A stretch of DNA of 6,986 bases. It comes from Planctomycetota bacterium. GTDB taxonomy: Bacteria > Planctomycetota > UBA1135 > UBA2386. The stretch covers positions 1 through 6,986 of the forward strand of contig JAGQRA010000322.1 of the NCBI GenBank assembly GCA_020425885.1. The letters are read 5' to 3'. Below the pieces are notes generated by a model that was not told the DNA's origin, did no database searches, and saw only the letters and a program-made list of their open reading frames with translations. Positions 150 through 6,986 of this stretch are shown here, in pieces. The first letter of the stretch is position 1, and each line of letters opens with the position of its first letter. The position numbers were made by a program, and so were the translations under genes.

Positions 150-920
150 ATGGCAACGAACTCGACCATCGAGTGGACCGAGACCACGTGGAACCCCGTC
201 GTGGGCTGCACGAAGGTCAGCGAAGGCTGCCGGAACTGCTACGCCGAACGCATGGCGAAGCGGCTGGCGGCAATGGCCGACGGCTCCGTTGAGCGCGGCG
301 AAGACCCTGGCCGGAAGGCGAACTACCAGAAGGCCGTTGGCCGCCGCGGGTGGTCCGGCCGCGTCGTGACCGATGAAGCCGCGCTGCAAGACCCGCTGCG
401 CTGGAAGCAGCCGCGCGTCGTGTTCGTGAACTCGATGAGCGACCTGTTCCACGCCGAGGTGCCCGAGCCGTTCATCCGCAAGCTGTTCGACGTGATGGCC
501 GCGTGCCCGCAGCACACGTTCCAGGTGCTGACCAAGCGGCCCGAGCGCGCCGCCGCGGTCGCCGGGTCGCTGCCTTGGCCGAACAACGTCTGGATGGGTA
601 CGAGCGTCGAGCGAGCCGACGTGCGCGGGCGCATCGACCTGTTGCGCAAGATCCCGGCGAAGGTGCGGTTCATCTCGGCCGAGCCGCTGATCGGACCGAT
701 TGGGCGCGTTTCGCTGCGCGGCATCCACTGGGTGATTGTCGGCGGCGAGTCCGGCCCAGGCGCGCGCCCAATGGATGGGGATTGGGTCCGCGACATCCGC
801 GACCGTTGCAACACGGCCGGCGTGGCGTTCTTCTTCAAACAGTGGGGCGGGACCAACAAGAAGAAGACTGGTCGCGTCCTTGACGGAAGAACCTGGGACG
901 AGATGCCGCGCGGAAGATGA
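150..920 (+). CDS. DUF5131 family protein (phage Gp37/Gp68-like, three-Cys-motif)
   Basis: A 256-residue protein of the DUF5131 (Gp37/Gp68) family. The opening with [14 protein letters not shown] is the family's hallmark and places the start at 150. The in-frame TTG at 81 would add 23 residues unlike the family. Three cysteines, C20, C27 and C30 (GC-x6-C-x2-CYA), form the three-Cys motif, which resembles but does not match the CX3CX2C cluster of radical SAM enzymes. Other conserved blocks are [10 protein letters not shown] (92-101), QVLTKRPER (125-133), WMGTSVE (148-154), RFISAEPL (173-180), [15 protein letters not shown] (194-208) and FFFKQWGG (227-234). The length is near normal and it looks intact. 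The reaction is unknown; an iron-sulfur or other metal site at the cysteines is an inference. Its stop overlaps the start of tcmP by 4 bases, implying translational coupling, and family members are known to sit beside TcmP genes. No convincing promoter or ribosome binding site is visible. Confidence 0.93.
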
Positions 921-2023
921 ACGACACGCTGCCGACCGTTTGGCCCGCCGATGCACACACGCTGGCGAAGCACAAGATCCTGATCCAGTACCTGTGCGCG
1001 TGGATGCCGATCATGACCAACCGGTTCCAGCGCGGCCCGCTGCGCTACATCGACGCGTTCGCCGGACCCGGTTCCTACACGGACGGATCACCCGGCAGCC
1101 CGATCGTCGCCTTGAACGTCGCGCTCGGCTGGCAGAGGCCCTTCGCGCGCCCCATCGACGCGACGTTCGTTGAACAGCGCGCCGACCGGCACGCGCTGCT
1201 GACCGACGCGCTGCGGCGCCTCGCCGACGAGCACGGGCGTTCGCCCAACGTGCGGTGGCAAGAACCCGTGCTGGGCGATGGCGAAACCGTGCTGCGGCAG
1301 ATGCTCAACAAGCGGCCGTTCGGGCCCGCGCTCGTGTTCCTCGACCAGTTCGGCTACTCGCAGGTCAGCATGGACCTGATCGGTGAGATCATCAGGTGCC
1401 AGAGCAGCGAGGTGTTCGCGTTCCTCAACTGGCGCGACATGAACCGCTGGATGAACGACCCGAACAAGGCGCCCGGCATCACGCGCGCGTTCGGTGGCGA
1501 CGAGTGGCGCACCGTGTTCGACCTGCCTGAGTCGAAGCGCCAGTCGGGGATGCTGGCGGCCTACGAGACCGCGTTGGAGAAGAAGGCCGGCGTGCGGTAC
1601 CGCTGCCGCTTCGACATGCGGGACAAGAACGACAAACTGCTGTACTGGTTGTTCTTCTGCTCCAACAGCCTGCGCGGCCTGGAAGAGATGAAGAAGGCCA
1701 TGTGGAAAGTCGACGACACCGGGCAGTTCCACTTCTCGGACCGGCACGTCGGCCAACCGTCCTTGCTCCAGGGGTTCACCCAGGAGTGGCTGGCCGGCGC
1801 ACTGCTCGACGAGTTCGACGGTCAGGATCTGACCGTCCGGGCCATCTTCGAGCACGTGCTGGTACACACCCCGTGCTACCAGTACAACAGCGCGCTGGGC
1901 CACCTGGAGAAGTCGGGCGACGCCGAGATGGTCAACGCGCCCGAGAAGCGCCGGCGCGGCTCGTTCGCGAAGTACCTGGACGACGAGAACGTGCGCGTGC
2001 GGTTCGCGAAGAAGCAGCCATAG
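917..2023 (+). CDS. tcmP: three-Cys-motif partner protein TcmP
   Basis: A 368-residue protein with the features of TcmP, the family defined by adjacency to DUF5131 proteins. The first segment (residues 12-32) is the helical lead-in around [17 protein letters not shown]. It is followed by [19 protein letters not shown] (44-62), a glycine-rich Rossmann loop like motif I of SAM-dependent methyltransferases. FLDQFGYS (141-148) sits where a methyltransferase motif IV would be. [12 protein letters not shown] (167-178) and [20 protein letters not shown] (243-262) follow, the latter typical of the family. The last about 80 residues (from GFTQEW, 286) look like a winged-helix segment. The ATG lies inside ATGA shared with the DUF5131 stop, so the two are almost certainly co-translated. 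Function is unknown: methyltransferase-like is the conservative description, and target and cofactor are not shown. It ends 12 bases short of the stop of the oppositely oriented helicase gene. Confidence 0.9.
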
Positions 2024-2035
2024 ACCAAGGACCGC

Positions 2036-4561
2036 TCAGGTGCTCTTCACGAACGGTACCAGGTAGTTCTCGGCGATCTGGTCCGCGCGCACCTTCGACT
2101 TCGTGAGCAGCCGGGCGCACTGGTTCACCAAACTGGCATCGTCCAGGCCGCTGGTCGCCAGCGCCGTGATCAGCGCACGGGCGTCTGCCACCAACCGGTC
2201 AAGGTTCGCGTAGGTCAACACTCGCGAGTCGCTGCACTCGGCCATGGCCGGCGCCGTGGCCTTGTTCGTGGGGCACACCGATGCCCCGACGTACGAGTGG
2301 TCCGGGTAGTGCTGCACGAACCACTTGCCCGCAACGAGCAACTGGCCGTGGTCGTCCTTGTTGAACGCGTTGTGCTTCCGCTTGCGGCTCTTCGCCTCGA
2401 AAACGATGGCTTCGTCGTCCGGCAAGAGCCACAGCACATCAGGCCCAACGCCTTGTTCGTCGAAACGCTCGGCGCTGAACCCGAGCACCTGCCCCAGCTC
2501 CATCAGCGACTGCTCGAACTGGTTCGACGACGCGTCCGGCACCAGCCTCGACACGATGTCTTCGAAGCGGCTGATGTGGCCACGCCGCATTCGTTGGCTC
2601 GGCATCCGTGCGACGATTGCGCGCTCCTGCTGGCCGGGCTCATTCAACTGGACGTAAGGCGGCGGGCTCTTGGATCGAACCAAGTTGCCGTTCTCCGCGA
2701 ATGCCTGCCGTTGCAGGTCGTCTGCCTTCTCGTGCTGGCCCCAGTCGTCAGCGATGCGTGCGGCCATCTGCAAGAGCCAGCCGCGTGACTGCCGGTCGAG
2801 GCTCTTCGCGTTCTTCTCGTCCGCCAAGAATGCCTCGATGCGGTCGATCGCCTGTTGGTGACGGCCTCCTGCCCACGCATGCAGGGCCCGCCGCTCGGTC
2901 GCGGCTTGCTCCAGGTGCTGCACTTCCCCGGTGTCCGCGTCCAACGCTTCGGCAAGTTCCTCTGCGTGGTACGTCGTCCACTCAGGGTCACGCGCCAAGC
3001 TGCGCGCCATCGTCTGGCCGAGTTCCTTGGTGCTCTTCACGGCCTCGCTGATGTCGATGCCCATGTCGAGTTGCGCCCGCGTCGCGGCGGTCAGGAACCT
3101 GTAGTTGGCATCCCGTGCGACCCAGCCGGACAGATCGGCCCCCAGCAGCAACACGATGCAGTAGTCACCTGAGCCGCGCGCACCGCGGCCAATCCCCTGT
3201 TCAACACGCTGAGCCAGAAGCCGGGTCATCGACTTGCCGCCGTACAACGCGCCGGCCCGGAACTGGTCGTACGACGACGTGCCACGTGGAAGACCCCACA
3301 TGACGAGCAGCCGGCAAGAGTTGCCCGGCAGGTCGATGCCGTCGTACCTGTTTGCGAATGCAACGGGCCCGAACGTCTGGCCCGTCTGCAACCGCTCGAC
3401 CTGCTGGTCAACTTGCGCAGGGCCTTCTGCCACTTCGGCCACATCTTCCCATTCCTTGGCGGCCTCGTTGGATGGGGCGAGGATCGCCACGCCGCTCCCC
3501 TTCTTCTCCGCCACCCACTTCATCAGCTTCGCGGCGTCGGCTTTCGCGTCGAAGTCGAACGACATCAGCCCGGGTACCAAGATCATGCGCTCGCTGATGC
3601 CAGCCACGGACCGCGAACTGAGCGCCCTGGCGACCTGGTCCTGCGCGGCGCCAAACGTGCGGATGATCTCGCTGTCGTCCGCAATCGTCGCCGACATGTA
3701 GATGCGCCGGCTGGCGTCGGCGAAGGAGGGCAGCATGTCGACGAGCGGCAGCATCGGGCTGATCGTGAACGCCCGACGGCTCACGAGCAGGTGGCACATG
3801 GGGAGGTGGTCACGAATCAGAGGCCACGCGAACTTGTGCCGATCCGCGTTCTTCCTTACGCAACCGCTCACGACTTGGCGCTTCTCACGCCAAGCCCAGT
3901 ACGGCACTTCGAGCACCGTCGATTCCTTGCCGCTCACAACATCATCGAAGGTGCCGATCTGGCCCGCCTGCTCGAACGCGTGCCGGAACTCGCCGACCAG
4001 CGTCTTGTACTGCTCCTCGTCATCTGCGGCGGTGATCTCGACCGTGAACGAGTCTCGAACGTCTGAGAATGCAACGTGCGCATCGTCGAGCACGATCGTG
4101 CCGACGTGCTGGATGTGCGTTCCGCCTCGCAGGCCGAACTTGTTGCGGTAGCCGTGGAACAGCGCGCTGTAGGTGGCGACCAGAACGGCTTTGCAGTTCA
4201 CGAAGTCGTCCGGCAAGTCTCGCCCGCCGTACGCGACGGCGGGGATGCCGTACTCGCGTGCGCGCTCAAGCGTCTGTTTGACCAACTGCTTGTTCGGGAC
4301 CAAGTACAGCACCGATTCCCTGGTCTCGTTGAGCGACGACTGGCACATCAGTAGCCCGACCAGCGTCTTGCCGCCGCCGGTGTGCAGCTTGATGACCATG
4401 TCGCGCTGCGTGCGGTTGTCGAACCACTTCGACAGCACTTCCGTCTGGCTCGTGTACAGATCGTTGATGCCCGGGGGCTTCGGCAGCCGCCGGAAAATCT
4501 CGCGCGGGTCGATGATCGCGGGCTTCTGCCCCTTCTTGCGCAACTTGTCGAAGTCGACCAT
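2036..4561 (-). CDS. SF2 DEAD/DEAH-type helicase with C-terminal PD-(D/E)XK nuclease domain
   Basis: An 841-residue helicase of superfamily 2, started at the ATG ending at 4561 because a strong GGAGGA site lies 6 bases upstream and the 71 residues of the longer reading (from 4774) are Arg/Pro-rich and family-unlike. Motif I is HTGGGKT (60-66), Ia YLVPNKQLV (86-94), II DDAH (159-162), III SAT (290-292), V about NRYDGIDLPG (404-413) and VI QRVEQGIGRGARG (451-463). About 100 residues lie between motifs II and III, longer than a minimal core. Residues about 535-625 look like helical-repeat linker. The C-terminus has PD (707-708), 13 residues, then FEAK (E722, K724) and DHGQ (737-740), the layout of a PD-(D/E)XK nuclease active site. 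ATP-driven movement on DNA or RNA coupled to cleavage is inferred. It runs convergently into tcmP, suggesting separate expression but common function in a defence-like locus. All key residues appear intact. Confidence 0.88.
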   Translation of the reverse strand: MVDFDKLRKKGQKPAIIDPREIFRRLPKPPGINDLYTSQTEVLSKWFDNRTQRDMVIKLHTGGGKTLVGLLMCQSSLNETRESVLYLVPNKQLVKQTLERAREYGIPAVAYGGRDLPDDFVNCKAVLVATYSALFHGYRNKFGLRGGTHIQHVGTIVLDDAHVAFSDVRDSFTVEITAADDEEQYKTLVGEFRHAFEQAGQIGTFDDVVSGKESTVLEVPYWAWREKRQVVSGCVRKNADRHKFAWPLIRDHLPMCHLLVSRRAFTISPMLPLVDMLPSFADASRRIYMSATIADDSEIIRTFGAAQDQVARALSSRSVAGISERMILVPGLMSFDFDAKADAAKLMKWVAEKKGSGVAILAPSNEAAKEWEDVAEVAEGPAQVDQQVERLQTGQTFGPVAFANRYDGIDLPGNSCRLLVMWGLPRGTSSYDQFRAGALYGGKSMTRLLAQRVEQGIGRGARGSGDYCIVLLLGADLSGWVARDANYRFLTAATRAQLDMGIDISEAVKSTKELGQTMARSLARDPEWTTYHAEELAEALDADTGEVQHLEQAATERRALHAWAGGRHQQAIDRIEAFLADEKNAKSLDRQSRGWLLQMAARIADDWGQHEKADDLQRQAFAENGNLVRSKSPPPYVQLNEPGQQERAIVARMPSQRMRRGHISRFEDIVSRLVPDASSNQFEQSLMELGQVLGFSAERFDEQGVGPDVLWLLPDDEAIVFEAKSRKRKHNAFNKDDHGQLLVAGKWFVQHYPDHSYVGASVCPTNKATAPAMAECSDSRVLTYANLDRLVADARALITALATSGLDDASLVNQCARLLTKSKVRADQIAENYLVPFVKST

Positions 4562-4670: not shown

Positions 4671-4982
4671 ATGACCGACCCGACGCCGATCCCGTTCCCG
4701 ACCGACCGGCACAGCCTGCTGCGCTGTGTGCGGTCGTACCTGGACCTGCTGACGCTGCGGGTCGACGGCGGCATCGAAGACGAAGCCGGGTGCGACTACC
4801 CGCTGCCCGGTGGGTTGTCGCTGGACGCCGTCACGTGCAGCCTGATGGCCTACGCGGCCGAAGACGACGCCAACAGCGCGGCCTTCGGCCTGGAGCCCTA
4901 CAGCGAGCACGACGACGTGGAAGAGATCGTGGCGAGCGTCAGGCGGCTGCTGGACCGCGCCGGGCCGCCGGGTGCGAACTGA
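4671..4982 (+). CDS. hypothetical acidic protein, 103 residues
   Basis: I do not recognise this protein. It starts at an ATG without a visible Shine-Dalgarno. It is acidic overall, with no signal peptide or membrane segment. A Pro-rich N-terminus (residues 1-11) is followed by a probable helix (SLLRCVRSYLDLLTLRV, 15-31), a middle section with DYPLPGGLSLDAV (42-54), a second helix around 51-62, and an acidic C-terminal helix (DDVEEIVASVRRLLDR, 81-96). Cysteines fall at 19, 41 and 56 without a metal-binding spacing. The codon pattern is protein-like: third positions are mostly G or C and the residues are balanced, unlike the overlapping frames. It is transcribed away from the helicase gene and is followed by a terminator-like hairpin, so it is probably monocistronic. 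Whether it belongs to the module at left or the region at right cannot be told. Confidence 0.65.
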   Translation: MTDPTPIPFPTDRHSLLRCVRSYLDLLTLRVDGGIEDEAGCDYPLPGGLSLDAVTCSLMAYAAEDDANSAAFGLEPYSEHDDVEEIVASVRRLLDRAGPPGAN

Positions 4983-5032
4983 CGGGGTCGGCGCTACCTT
5001 GATCGCGGCACAACGGCCGGGGCACGTCCGCC

Positions 5033-5076
5033 GGCGCCTTCACGGCGCCCGACTCTCCTTCTTCCCCTTTTTCCCT
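5033..5076 (+). terminator. terminator-like hairpin with pyrimidine tract after the 103-residue gene
   Basis: GGCGCC (5033-5038), loop TTCAC and GGCGCC (5044-5049) make a 6-bp all-GC stem, followed by an unbroken 24-base pyrimidine run (5053-5076) that includes five consecutive T residues at 5068-5072. It begins 50 bases after the plus-strand stop. The T-run lies about 18 bases beyond the stem, further than in a classic intrinsic terminator, so efficiency is uncertain. Confidence 0.45.
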
Positions 5077-5094
5077 GCGGCGGTCCCGGCCACT

Positions 5095-5295
5095 TCACCG
5101 CAACGCGGCGGCGTCGATGCCCAGGGCGCGCGCGATGGTCCACAGGGCTTCGGTGAAGCCCACGGGGTTGTCGGCGGCGCGGTCGTCCCACCAGTCGGGC
5201 AACACGTGCTGGCGCACCCAGGGCTCGCTGTAGCCCAGGTCGGCGAGGCGCGCGAACAGGGCGCGCATGGGTTCGGTGCCGGTGGTCGGCGTCAT
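5095..5295 (-). CDS. short PDWWDD-motif protein, probable N-terminal stub of a regulator
   Basis: A 66-residue reading frame from an ATG at 5295; an alternative ATG at 5268 would give 57 residues. Residues 11-30 read as a short helix plus GYSEPWVRQH, then VLPDWWDDRA (31-40), and NPVGFTEALWTIARALGIDAAAL (43-65). To me this resembles the N-terminal region of larger XRE/ImmA-IrrE-type regulatory proteins, in which LPDWWDD and a following helix ending in LG(I/L) precede the main domains. Here a TGA follows directly after LR, and nothing family-like continues in any frame beyond it, only a purine-rich stretch. It may be a truncated gene remnant or a genuinely short protein. It begins just after the minus-strand terminator hairpin, without a Shine-Dalgarno site, so it is probably not read as part of the operon upstream. 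The family link is from memory. Confidence 0.5.
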   Translation of the reverse strand: MTPTTGTEPMRALFARLADLGYSEPWVRQHVLPDWWDDRAADNPVGFTEALWTIARALGIDAAALR

Positions 5296-5304
5296 CGTGC
5301 AGGT

Positions 5305-5347
5305 ACAGAAAAAGACCGCGCTGGGCCCCACCCGAGGCCCAGCGCGG
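5305..5347 (-). terminator. strong intrinsic terminator, minus strand (distal of two)
   Basis: A perfect 12-bp stem is formed by 5316-5327 (CCGCGCTGGGCC) and 5336-5347 with an 8-base loop (5328-5335). On the minus strand it is followed at once by TCTTTTTCTGT. This is a textbook Rho-independent terminator for transcription arriving from the operon at right. It ends 10 bases before the ATG of the PDWWDD stub. Confidence 0.85.
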
Positions 5348-5386
5348 CGGCGCGCGCCACCGCCATGAACTCGATGGTGCGCGCGA

Positions 5387-5429
5387 AGGAAAAGTGCGCC
5401 CCGCCACCATGACCCGGGCAGCGGGGCGC
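5387..5429 (-). terminator. intrinsic terminator-like hairpin, minus strand (proximal of two)
   Basis: A 9-bp perfect GC stem (GCGCCCCGC at 5396-5404 with 5421-5429) closes a 16-base loop. On the minus strand it is followed by ACTTTTCCTT, a short T-tract. Together with the hairpin at 5305-5347 it forms a tandem pair behind the small-protein operon. It is weaker than the distal one because only four T residues follow. Confidence 0.55.
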
Positions 5430-5467
5430 GAGGAACCGCGCCCACCTGGAAGAGAATCAGGCGAGCG

Positions 5468-5520
5468 CGGTGGCACCACCGGGGCGAACCGGCGGTTGCC
5501 CGACAGCAACCAGCTGCCGG
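5468..5520. repeat. pair of inverted repeats downstream of the 141-residue gene
   Basis: CGGTGG-CA-CCACCG (5468-5481) is a 6-bp repeat with a 2-base centre. Beside it, CCGGC (5489-5493) and GGTTGC (5494-5499) pair with GCAACC (5506-5511) and GCCGG (5516-5520) around a 6-base loop, with AGCT (5512-5515) unpaired. Neither has a T-tract on the minus strand. They extend the run of hairpins that fills the stretch between 5316 and 5543, which otherwise holds no supportable gene. Confidence 0.45.
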
Positions 5521-5543
5521 GATGCCTCAACAAGATGTTCGGT

Positions 5544-5969
5544 TCACTGCTGGGCGGCGTCGCTCGCGTTGCGCAGGTGCTCGTACAGCCGCGTGAACGT
5601 GCGGTCCTTCTCGCGAGCAAGGCGCGAGGTGGTCGCCGCGGCGTCCTCGCCGTCGGCCTTCGCGAGTTGCACGTACTCGTCGAGCCGTTCGGCGGCTTCG
5701 GCGTGGAACTGGCGCGCTTGCTTGCGAACGGTCCGGTTGTCGGCGCTGACGCGAAGCCGCTCGGCGGCCTTCGCCAGCGTGACCATGTCGCTGTCGCCCT
5801 CGGCGACGAGCCGCGCGAAGGCGGCTTCGGGCGTCTCGCCCGCGCGCTTGCGAACGGCGCCGAGCGCGATCATCGCGTCTTCGACGTGCTGCAAGGTAAC
5901 CGTGGGCTTGGCGCCCTTGAGCAGTTGGGATGCGGCCGTGACCGCCTTGGTGATGTCGTTGGTGTTCAT
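5544..5969 (-). CDS. hypothetical helix-rich protein, 141 residues (last gene of the small-protein operon)
   Basis: I do not recognise this protein. The ATG at 5969 lies in an ATGA overlap with the stop of the preceding 117-residue gene and has GGAGA about 10 bases upstream, so the start is well supported. The sequence looks entirely helical, soluble and charged. There is an N-terminal helix (ITKAVTAASQLLKG, residues 6-19), HVEDAMIALGAVRKRAGETP (28-47), EAAFARLVAEGDSDMVTLAKAAERLR (48-73), and a long Ala/Arg/Glu-rich stretch (80-135) able to form a coiled coil, with ARQFHAEAAERLDEYVQLA (85-103). There is no cysteine, signal peptide or membrane segment. The composition is reminiscent of small phage or element structural and accessory proteins, but that is style, not homology. 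Two terminator hairpins follow, marking it as the last gene of the operon. Confidence 0.75.
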   Translation of the reverse strand: MNTNDITKAVTAASQLLKGAKPTVTLQHVEDAMIALGAVRKRAGETPEAAFARLVAEGDSDMVTLAKAAERLRVSADNRTVRKQARQFHAEAAERLDEYVQLAKADGEDAAATTSRLAREKDRTFTRLYEHLRNASDAAQQ

Positions 5970-6319
5970 CGTGGTGCGTTCTCCAGGAATCGGTCGATCA
6001 GGGCGTCGCGCTCGTCGCGCGGGAAGGCCCGAGCGAAGGCGGCGAGGATGGGGTCTTCGAGTTCGACGAGGTCGAACAGCGTCTGCACGGCGGATTGGCC
6101 GAAGACGCGCGTCGCGCACATGATCACGTACGCGTTGAAGTTCCATTCGAGGTCGTCGCCGTCCTCGATGGCTTGCAGGGCGGTACGCACGCGGTGCTCG
6201 TACTCGCGGCACACGCGGCGGAACCCGGCGCGGATGGACGCAGGACCGCGGCGACCGGGATCGCGCAGCGCGCGTTCCAGGCCCACCATTCGGTCGACGG
6301 GTCGAGCGTCGGACCTCAC
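5966..6319 (-). CDS. hypothetical protein, 117 residues
   Basis: Unrecognised. The proposed start is GTG at 6319, sharing GTGA with the stop of the 95-residue gene, and GGGGGA lies about 8 bases upstream. An internal ATG (residue 11, at 6289) has no such support. The N-terminal 40 residues are very basic (many Arg). The middle has IEDGDDLEWNFNAYVIMCATR (51-71), which is mildly hydrophobic but too short and polar for a clear membrane segment. The C-terminus is acidic and helical (LFDLVELEDPILAAFARAF, 81-99, then DERDALIDRFLENAPR, 102-117). The arrangement of a basic head and helical acidic tail suggests a small soluble, possibly nucleic-acid-binding or oligomerising protein; this is only an inference. 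It is translationally coupled on both sides by 4-base overlaps. Confidence 0.72.
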   Translation of the reverse strand: MRSDARPVDRMVGLERALRDPGRRGPASIRAGFRRVCREYEHRVRTALQAIEDGDDLEWNFNAYVIMCATRVFGQSAVQTLFDLVELEDPILAAFARAFPRDERDALIDRFLENAPR

Positions 6320-6603
6320 AGCGCGGTCCCCCAGGCGACCAAGGCAAGGTCGGCGAACCAGCGGTCGCCCGTGGCGATGAAGTGCGCGATCTGCTCGCCC
6401 GTCGTGCGACCGTGCAGCGTGGCGTTGCCCACGATGTAGCGCAGCAGGGCGCCGCGCTGGTCGGCGTGTGGGTTGTCGAGCGCGACTTCGGCATCGACGC
6501 GTAGCAGCCCGAGTTCGACTTCGGTCGCCTCGGCGATCACCGCGTGCTCGGCGCTGGTTCGCGCCGCGGCGCGCGCGTGCAGGATGGTTTCGATGGGGTT
6601 CAT
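6316..6603 (-). CDS. hypothetical protein, 95 residues
   Basis: Unrecognised. The ATG at 6603 is preferred. An upstream ATG at 6717 in the same frame would add 38 low-complexity Ser/Pro/Thr/Arg residues and overlap the preceding coding region by about 40 bases. The N-terminal half is a long Ala/Glu-rich helix (residues 3-42, with ETILHARAAARTSAEHAVIA at 5-24). GALLRYIVGNATLHGRTTGEQ (49-69) and IAHFIATGDRWFADLALVAW (70-89) form a mildly hydrophobic C-terminal half. No Shine-Dalgarno is evident, but a long stem-loop lies 20 bases upstream and may influence translation. It shares GTGA with the next gene, so it leads the coupled trio. Function cannot be inferred. Confidence 0.7.
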   Translation of the reverse strand: MNPIETILHARAAARTSAEHAVIAEATEVELGLLRVDAEVALDNPHADQRGALLRYIVGNATLHGRTTGEQIAHFIATGDRWFADLALVAWGTAL

Positions 6604-6623
6604 GTCGTCGTGTGGTGGAAGGT

Positions 6624-6670
6624 GCGCACCCAGCCGGCCCGCTGACGCGGTGCTTGCCCGGCGGGTGCGC
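6624..6670. repeat. long interrupted inverted repeat between two minus-strand genes
   Basis: GCGCACCC (6624-6631) pairs with GGGTGCGC (6663-6670). After a bulged A, GCCGG (6633-6637) pairs with CCGGC (6658-6662). Inside, CCGC (6639-6642) pairs with GCGG (6647-6650) around TGAC. The 13-bp outer stem begins 6 bases after the stop of the partial gene and ends 20 bases before the 95-residue gene's ATG. No T-tract follows on either strand, so it is not a classic terminator. An mRNA-stabilising or processing element is possible. Confidence 0.5.
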
Positions 6671-6676
6671 GATGTG

Positions 6677-6986
6677 TCAGTCGATGGACTCGGTGAGCGG
6701 TCGGGCGTGGGCGGCAAGGCGGCGGTCGGCGCCGATCAGCTGCGCGAACCGCGGGGCGCCGGCGTGCAGGGCCTGAAGCACCTGACGATCGGCGGTGACC
6801 GGGCGGCTGCGGCCGGTGGCCTTCCGCTGCTGCGCCTGCCGAGCGATGGCGGCGTCCTGGTAGCGGCCGACGGCGGCTTCGATCGCCGCGAACAGGCCGT
6901 CGATCTCGCCGGCCGCGGTTCGCTGTTCCTGCGCCAGCCGGGCGTCCTCGGCGACGGCGGCTTGACGGTCGCGTTCCTGGCGCTCG
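6677..6986 (-). CDS. C-terminal part of a coiled-coil-like hypothetical protein (runs off right edge)
   Basis: Reading the minus strand from the right edge, one frame stays open for 103 codons to a TGA at 6677-6679. The visible part has no chosen start, so the gene begins outside the window. The first about 30 residues are charged and repetitive (ERQERDRQAAVAEDARLAQE), typical of a coiled coil. EIDGLFAAIEAAVGRYQDAA follows, then a basic Gln-rich stretch (IARQAQQRKATGRSRP), and a final helical part (DRQVLQALHAGAPRFAQLIG, then ADRRLAAHARPLTESID). The other frames give the Gly/Pro/Arg-rich noise usual in this DNA. No family is recognised. It lies upstream of the 95-residue gene by 73 bases in the same direction and is probably in the same transcription unit. 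Confidence 0.65.
   Translation of the reverse strand, partial: ERQERDRQAAVAEDARLAQEQRTAAGEIDGLFAAIEAAVGRYQDAAIARQAQQRKATGRSRPVTADRQVLQALHAGAPRFAQLIGADRRLAAHARPLTESID

Follow-up and report, generated by a model that had tools for sequence, protein, structure and literature searches.

A DUF5131-TcmP gene pair facing an Hna homologue in a Planctomycetota contig: probably two separate anti-phage modules side by side

Introduction

Two described systems stand closest to the genes treated here. Hna of S. meliloti is described in print as a single-protein abortive infection system, a 3'-5' single-stranded DNA (ssDNA) exonuclease that is kept in check as an ATP-bound dimer until the single-stranded DNA-binding protein (SSB) of the phage sets it free; according to the introduction of PMC12445080, hna alone, when re-introduced into S. 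meliloti lacking pSymA, restores full resistance. PDC-M30 is a PADLOC candidate obtained by guilt-by-embedding and, in the account of PMC10855318, not experimentally tested; in a set of 100 P. aeruginosa strains, the same source finds it in 32, of which 68.8% are phage-resistant, a correlation only. Members of both systems meet in the stretch of DNA analysed here (the window), the 6,986 nucleotides of contig JAGQRA010000322.1 from a Planctomycetota bacterium, in which a DUF5131 gene and a gene for the three-Cys-motif partner TcmP face a helicase-nuclease gene. The open-access literature that we searched gave no mechanism for DUF5131-TcmP or PDC-M30.

The reading that we favour is the juxtaposition, in one defence island, of two anti-phage modules, Hna and an independent second module. 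We consider it probable as a whole, and we are more confident still of one of its parts, the functional independence of Hna and DUF5131-TcmP. That the pair serves defence at all is the better-supported side of a closer question.

Results and Discussion

Organization of the locus

The features of the window that concern us are the following.

150 to 920, + strand: DUF5131 (Gp37/Gp68), from ATG at 150 to TGA ending at 920, 256 aa; PF07505 E 2.3e-102; PADLOC PDC-M30B/M41B.
917 to 2023, + strand: TcmP (three-Cys-motif partner), from ATG at 917 to TAG ending at 2023, 368 aa; TIGR04474; PADLOC PDC-M30A.
917 to 920, + strand: start/stop overlap ATGA coupling DUF5131 and TcmP, read from the sequence.
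2024 to 2035, no strand: gap of 12 bases between the stop codons of the convergent TcmP and Hna genes, read from the sequence.
2036 to 4561, - strand: Hna homologue, superfamily 2 (SF2) helicase with a C-terminal PD-(D/E)XK nuclease, 841 aa; PADLOC PDC-S28.

The helicase starts at ATG 4561 (MVDF), preceded by GGAGG, and its stop ends at 2036; the GC content at third codon positions (GC3) is 0.86-0.93 across the DUF5131, TcmP and helicase frames. A sequence-only reading of the window had already pointed out the ATGA coupling and the 12-base distance to the end of the helicase, and both are confirmed at the positions given above.

Identification of the helicase as an Hna homologue

Residues 1-813 of the helicase align to residues 1-818 of S. 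meliloti Hna (PDB 10uj/9ykj; E 3.7e-116), and matches were obtained to PF00270 (E 1.8e-15) and, over residues 1-838, to PADLOC PDC-S28 (E 2.6e-270). The 841-aa product is thus a single protein of the size of Hna (about 845 aa) and homologous to it along its length. Its helicase motifs (Walker A HTGGGKT, motif II LDDAH, MSAT and motif VI QGIGRGARG) align with those of 10uj and are largely invariant in 14 Hna sequences, as befits an SF2 helicase. In the alignment, the S. meliloti counterparts of the nuclease residues D708, E722 and K724 are D713, E727 and K729, the lysine being embedded in FEAKS in the window and in FECKS in S. meliloti, where the K729A substitution removes the nuclease activity (as reported in PMC13381803, the publication to which 10uj and 9ykj belong); the SF2 helicase with a PD-(D/E)XK signature, recognized earlier from the letters, is therefore real. 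Like Hna (SMa2245), the window protein keeps the helicase motifs, the GPD...FE-x-KS nuclease core and the MVDF start; unlike the tested S. meliloti protein, to which it is about 32% identical, it sits in another large clade of the Hna tree. PDC-S28 is also the best PADLOC match of the Hna of R. rhizogenes, which shares 94.3% identity with that of S. meliloti; being the best model for both the window and the R. rhizogenes protein, PDC-S28 covers Hna. The window helicase is almost certainly an Hna homologue, and its homology and conserved catalytic residues suggest that it would act as an exonuclease released by SSB in abortive infection.

Hna is not a regular neighbour of the pair

The 697 genomes searched with PF07505 comprise Bacillota (199), Pseudomonadota (299) and the phylum of the Planctomyces metagenome-assembled genome (MAG) G004 (199); the family exceeds its cut-off in 33, 32 and 42 of them, respectively. 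Of the 129 such places, the 85 strongest were taken as loci (19 of 38, 32 of 40 and 34 of 51), weaker or fragmentary places being dropped; one of the 38 Bacillota places belongs to the centre genome, which was picked via Hna. For viral contigs, the 80 best DUF5131 loci were used out of at least 594. Hna relatives were retrieved with an alignment query, a single-sequence query giving none in viral or genome contigs, and comprise 27 viral loci and 79 genome loci, the latter drawn from the best 80 of 458 candidates and not at random. Many loci end at contig ends.

Hna occurs in none of the 85 genome loci and none of the 80 viral loci of DUF5131, and likewise in none of the 14 DUF5131 loci taken from Hna-bearing genomes. 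These 14 come from the 20 places such genomes hold besides L007 and L024; a strong place of genome G050, the Hna flanks of which were scanned, was left out. Starting from the other side, DUF5131-TcmP lies within the 10-kb flanks of two of the 79 Hna genome loci (L007 and L024) and of none of the 27 viral ones. DUF5131 exceeds the cut-off in 21 of the 78 Hna-bearing genomes and lies outside the retrieved Hna flanks in 19 of these. In L006, whose Hna (70% identity) is the nearest among the fetched loci, no pair follows within 1.5 kb of the hna stop codon. On these counts we rejected a constant association of the helicase with the pair.

The same three families are nevertheless adjacent in five places: the window, pSymA of S. 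meliloti (L001), pC6.5b of R. rhizogenes (L211), Paenibacillus filicis (L007) and a Bryobacterales MAG (L024). The pair converges with Hna in the first three and is divergent from it in the last two. The S. meliloti block is arranged as follows.

14221 to 19882 of L001 (S. meliloti pSymA): DUF5131-TcmP1, then TcmP2 and hna on the opposite strand.

The window has the same families, order and convergence as the DUF5131-TcmP1-TcmP2-Hna blocks of pSymA and pC6.5b, and its proteins are about 30-51% identical to those of the S. meliloti block; unlike the window, the two blocks have an extra TcmP (motif DPFG) directly downstream of hna, which in R. rhizogenes is of the PDC-M41A type. In L211 the PADLOC proteins M41A (TcmP2) and M30A (TcmP1) share a single DUF5131, and the block lies within an island that also holds a reverse transcriptase, a UvrD-type helicase, a type IIG-like enzyme and a DUF262 protein. 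On pAt of A. tumefaciens Yub001 (L212, 8992-17758), the genes after DUF5131-TcmP1-TcmP2 are, in place of Hna, Hachiman HamB and HamA (DUF1837), called by PADLOC with E 0 and 2.9e-97.

In both trees the five Hna-linked rows lie scattered, with four state changes in the Hna tree (83 rows) and five in the DUF5131 tree (82 rows), four being forced by starred branches in each. These trees were made by a quick method and the changes do not separate gain from loss; that of DUF5131 was built without a mixture model, carries a long-branch warning and includes L178, which has no clear TcmP. Separate juxtapositions are still the simplest reading of the scatter, in preference to shared descent. Furthermore, the DUF5131 and TcmP genes of pSymA are absent from the S. 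meliloti lacking pSymA in which hna alone suffices, which decides part of the question whether Hna needs the pair.

We also note that an Hna relative (P0001, 93% identity) and a TcmP relative (P0121, 91%) are each listed on a contig of 82,963 bases, so that an Hna-TcmP linkage may persist in a close relative; none of the listed DUF5131 matches is on a contig of that length.

The DUF5131-TcmP pair

The canonical cluster motif of the radical S-adenosylmethionine (SAM) enzymes is CX3CX2C. The three cysteines of the window DUF5131 are arranged as C20-X6-C27-X2-C30, and this CX6CX2C spacing recurs in 176 of 193 DUF5131 open reading frames (ORFs) scoring at least 250 bits, two others having another spacing and 15 giving no match to the cysteine pattern used. 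The AlphaFold model of DUF5131 is predicted to be a radical-SAM-like partial (beta/alpha) barrel, the closest structure being spore photoproduct lyase. DUF5131 differs from radical SAM enzymes such as spore photoproduct lyase, RlmN and viperin in its CX6CX2C motif and in an identity of about 10%, with no meaningful PDB sequence match even by profile. Since the PDB searches with DUF5131 and TcmP, by single sequence or by profile, gave chance-level matches only, the fold statements on both proteins rest on predicted models. TIGR04471 (radical SAM mobile pair protein A) matches DUF5131 in part (86-231) with 80.9 bits, below its cut-off of 355. The assignment of DUF5131 to the canonical radical SAM enzymes by sequence was rejected on the motif and on Pfam, and we do not take a structural match as proof of a substrate.

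TcmP belongs to TIGR04474 (177.9 bits for a curated cut-off of 53). It combines a Rossmann methyltransferase-like domain (motif I D46AFAGPG, motif IV D143QFG) with a C-terminal winged-helix-like part, and its AlphaFold model suggests a methyltransferase fold of the RlmJ/Trm1 type; compared with RlmJ (23S rRNA A2030 N6-methyltransferase) and Trm1 (tRNA G26 methyltransferase), the C-terminal part is extra. Motif IV reads DQFG in the window and DPFG or DPYG in many other TcmPs. In PADLOC, TcmP is PDC-M30A (E 1.2e-39) and DUF5131 is PDC-M30B (E 1.9e-103; its best models are PDC-M41B and PDC-M30B), and the two genes, adjacent with a 4-base overlap, constitute a candidate PDC-M30 system.

The pairing itself is widespread. 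A clear TcmP (at least 50 bits, in its own frame) lies at most 81 bases from DUF5131 in 56 of the 85 genome loci (12 of 19 in Bacillota, 19 of 32 in Pseudomonadota and 25 of 34 in the phylum of G004) and in 40 of the 80 viral loci, the order and orientation being variable. Excluded from these counts were L178 (genome) and L254 (viral), where the DUF5131 frame itself matched weakly, and the viral L232 and L283, whose matches fall below 50 bits. The two genes converge in 18 of the 40 viral pairs, and the two families are fused in protein P0162 (620 aa), with ORFs of L198 and L130 matching both in part. Strict restriction-modification was rejected, as no cognate nuclease gene accompanies the pair in the loci seen. 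In two plasmid loci (L219, 8004-9898, and L218, 8001-9697), DUF5131 and TcmP are convergent and their 3' ends overlap by 4 bases.

Genomic, viral and plasmid surroundings

To describe the neighbourhoods in cellular genomes, two ORFs per side were scanned at 35 of 57 pair loci, at the 33 of 64 Hna loci that were long enough and at 33 of 40 control stretches, placed half a contig away on DUF5131-bearing contigs; L178, which has no clear TcmP, is among the 57 and the 35. The flanks match 158 PADLOC models for the pair (130 ORFs) and 161 for Hna (129 ORFs) versus 47 for the controls (127 ORFs), counts that are redundant, several models matching one gene, and that come from ORFs chosen by length and not by a gene finder. 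Single pair loci adjoin McrBC and an N-6 methylase, a methylase/GIY-YIG block, or Hachiman HamAB. The enrichment in defence islands expected of a defence system is thus observed for both modules. Of the anti-phage link proposed earlier for the locus, what survives is a tested system (Hna), a candidate one (PDC-M30) and flanks rich in defence genes, and what falls is the joint system of three parts. Of the three outcomes named in advance as speaking against that system, two were observed, a helicase no commoner beside the pair and trees that do not agree; the third, a lack of enrichment in defence islands, was not.

Of 50,697 phage records, 159 contain DUF5131, as do 405 of 72,556 plasmid records. 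The viral scan used 40 of 43 loci, the 43 including the weak TcmP calls L232, L254 and L283, and here as with PADLOC the family listings hold the top 25 families. In the 146 flanking ORFs of the viral pairs, repressors and regulators are the commonest families (phrog_4 in 11, phrog_8 in 7, phrog_2328 in 6), followed by integrases (phrog_1 in 5, phrog_216 in 4). Among the top 25 families of the 145 ORFs located more than 5 kb away on 32 of the same viral contigs no repressor family appears, a list in which a rarer one could be hidden. In Gordonia phage Angelique (L213, 4992-6862), a convergent DUF5131-TcmP pair lies between the tyrosine integrase and the immunity repressor, its gene 43, a 'methyltransferase', being TcmP by profile. 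Genes in such a position are often active while the prophage is silent, and the placement of the pair on the repressor or integrase side thereby favours its activity in the lysogen. The commonest families beyond 5 kb are DNA methyltransferases (phrog_498 in 6 of the 145 ORFs; also phrog_67 and phrog_3008), a possible sign of a modification theme.

A model for the two modules

By homology to the S. meliloti protein, Hna would be an ssDNA exonuclease kept off as an ATP-bound dimer and set free by the phage SSB. For the pair, we start from the pairing, the predicted folds, the conserved cysteines and the placement, and from these we infer a cluster, a radical chemistry, a substrate and a defence outcome. 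DUF5131 would most likely hold a [4Fe-4S] cluster through CX6CX2C and cleave SAM to generate the 5'-deoxyadenosyl radical. TcmP would most likely bind SAM and nucleic acid through its RlmJ/Trm1-like domain and its winged helix. Together they would most likely modify nucleic-acid bases, in phage DNA or RNA or in host RNA during infection, which would make the multiplication of the phage fail. Nucleic-acid modification is a possible mechanism of the pair, and a rather doubtful one. Still more tentative is the full proposal: a widespread radical-SAM-powered anti-phage system, borne by prophages next to their repressor, in which a CX6CX2C enzyme resembling spore photoproduct lyase and viperin would be aimed by its winged-helix, methyltransferase-like partner, so that a nucleic acid would be altered and rival phages stopped, giving with the adjacent Hna a two-layer defence.

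A number of observations weigh against this model. As regards the chemistry, the canonical CX3CX2C is absent from the window DUF5131, its Pfam scan gave no Radical_SAM match, no Foldseek match of its model reaches E 0.001, and the Foldseek list also holds other TIM barrels. As regards defence by the pair, the open-access literature searched contained no direct test of DUF5131-TcmP, no clear TcmP accompanies DUF5131 in 29 of the 85 genome loci sampled, the integrase families phrog_1 and phrog_216 also occur in the viral control (2 ORFs each), and the viral pair flanks match just 32 PADLOC models (146 ORFs, a count that stands without a viral control), so that the defence-rich neighbourhood applies to cellular and not to phage loci. 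In the phages dwieneke (L214), PhiCh1 (L215) and Sparky (L217), the fetched DUF5131 flanks hold no TcmP, and in Sparky and PhiCh1 DUF5131 is near replication-type genes, which fits a lytic role; these three phages suggest a second, lytic use of the DUF5131 family. As regards independence, the two Hna-pair juxtapositions seen in 79 loci exceed a random expectation of roughly 0.05, a figure that assumes one DUF5131 per 20-35 Mb (129 places, 697 genomes, sizes partly listed) and ignores relatedness; this excess probably stems from the residence of both modules in defence islands. Lastly, hna and the TcmP gene SMa2243, which are listed consecutively in Table 1 of PMC12445080, show there log2 changes of 1.075 and 1.041 in nolR+ S. 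meliloti. To judge from gene order, SMa2243 would be the TcmP directly downstream of hna, and some coupling of hna and tcmP is possible in S. meliloti.

Could the pair, instead of attacking phages, be a modification module that shields its carrier, prophage or plasmid, from the nucleases of the host or of rivals, its defence neighbours reflecting shared mobile elements? Such a counter-defence role would agree with the presence of DUF5131 in the 159 phage and 405 plasmid records, with the three phages whose fetched DUF5131 flanks lack TcmP, DUF5131 being close to replication-type genes in two of them, with the few PADLOC models matched by viral flanks and with the DNA methyltransferases that lead beyond 5 kb from the viral pairs. 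It accords less well with the tendency of viral pairs to adjoin a repressor, as in Angelique, and with the frequency of pairs beside defence genes in cellular genomes, and we regard it as unlikely. A layered, loosely coupled defence, in which separate modules would be co-regulated or mutually protective where adjacent (the modification by the pair sparing, for example, the host DNA from an unleashed Hna), would account for juxtapositions that recur in distant lineages above the 0.05 expected, and for the joint shift of about two-fold of hna and a tcmP with NolR (Table 1 of PMC12445080). Membership of an island, however, often clusters two defence genes, Hna has no pair beside it in 77 of 79 loci and, as the introduction of the same paper has it, acts by itself in S. 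meliloti, which makes this alternative distinctly improbable. As for a single three-component modification/restriction or anti-phage system of DUF5131, TcmP and the helicase-nuclease, as the sequence-only reading had it, the 12-base convergence in the window, the adjacency of the families in pSymA, pC6.5b, L007 and L024 and the like response of hna and a tcmP to NolR (PMC12445080, Table 1) scarcely count against the lack of Hna in all 85 genome and 80 viral DUF5131 loci, the 77 Hna genome loci without the pair in their retrieved flanks, the scattering of the Hna-linked rows in the quick-method Hna and DUF5131 trees, the variable orientation (convergent in the window, L001 and L211, divergent in L007 and L024), the replacement of Hna by Hachiman after the same block in A. 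tumefaciens pAt and the resistance restored by hna by itself in S. meliloti (PMC12445080, introduction), and we have abandoned it as hardly credible.

With Hna and a probably independent second module as the preferred reading, a tempting three-gene system is removed and the helicase receives a name, and the species in which Hna was characterized turns out to have the same DUF5131-TcmP neighbours. PDC-M30, a catalogue entry without chemistry, becomes a testable proposal that associates a radical-SAM-like enzyme with a methyltransferase-like partner. Viperin is an example of radical SAM chemistry in immunity; if the pair is anti-phage, it would add a case to that of viperin.

Remaining features of the window

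Positions 4671-6986 of the window hold a series of small ORFs without Pfam match. Among those scanned, the sole match to a phage family is at 5098-5445 (phrog_18577, E 6e-8).

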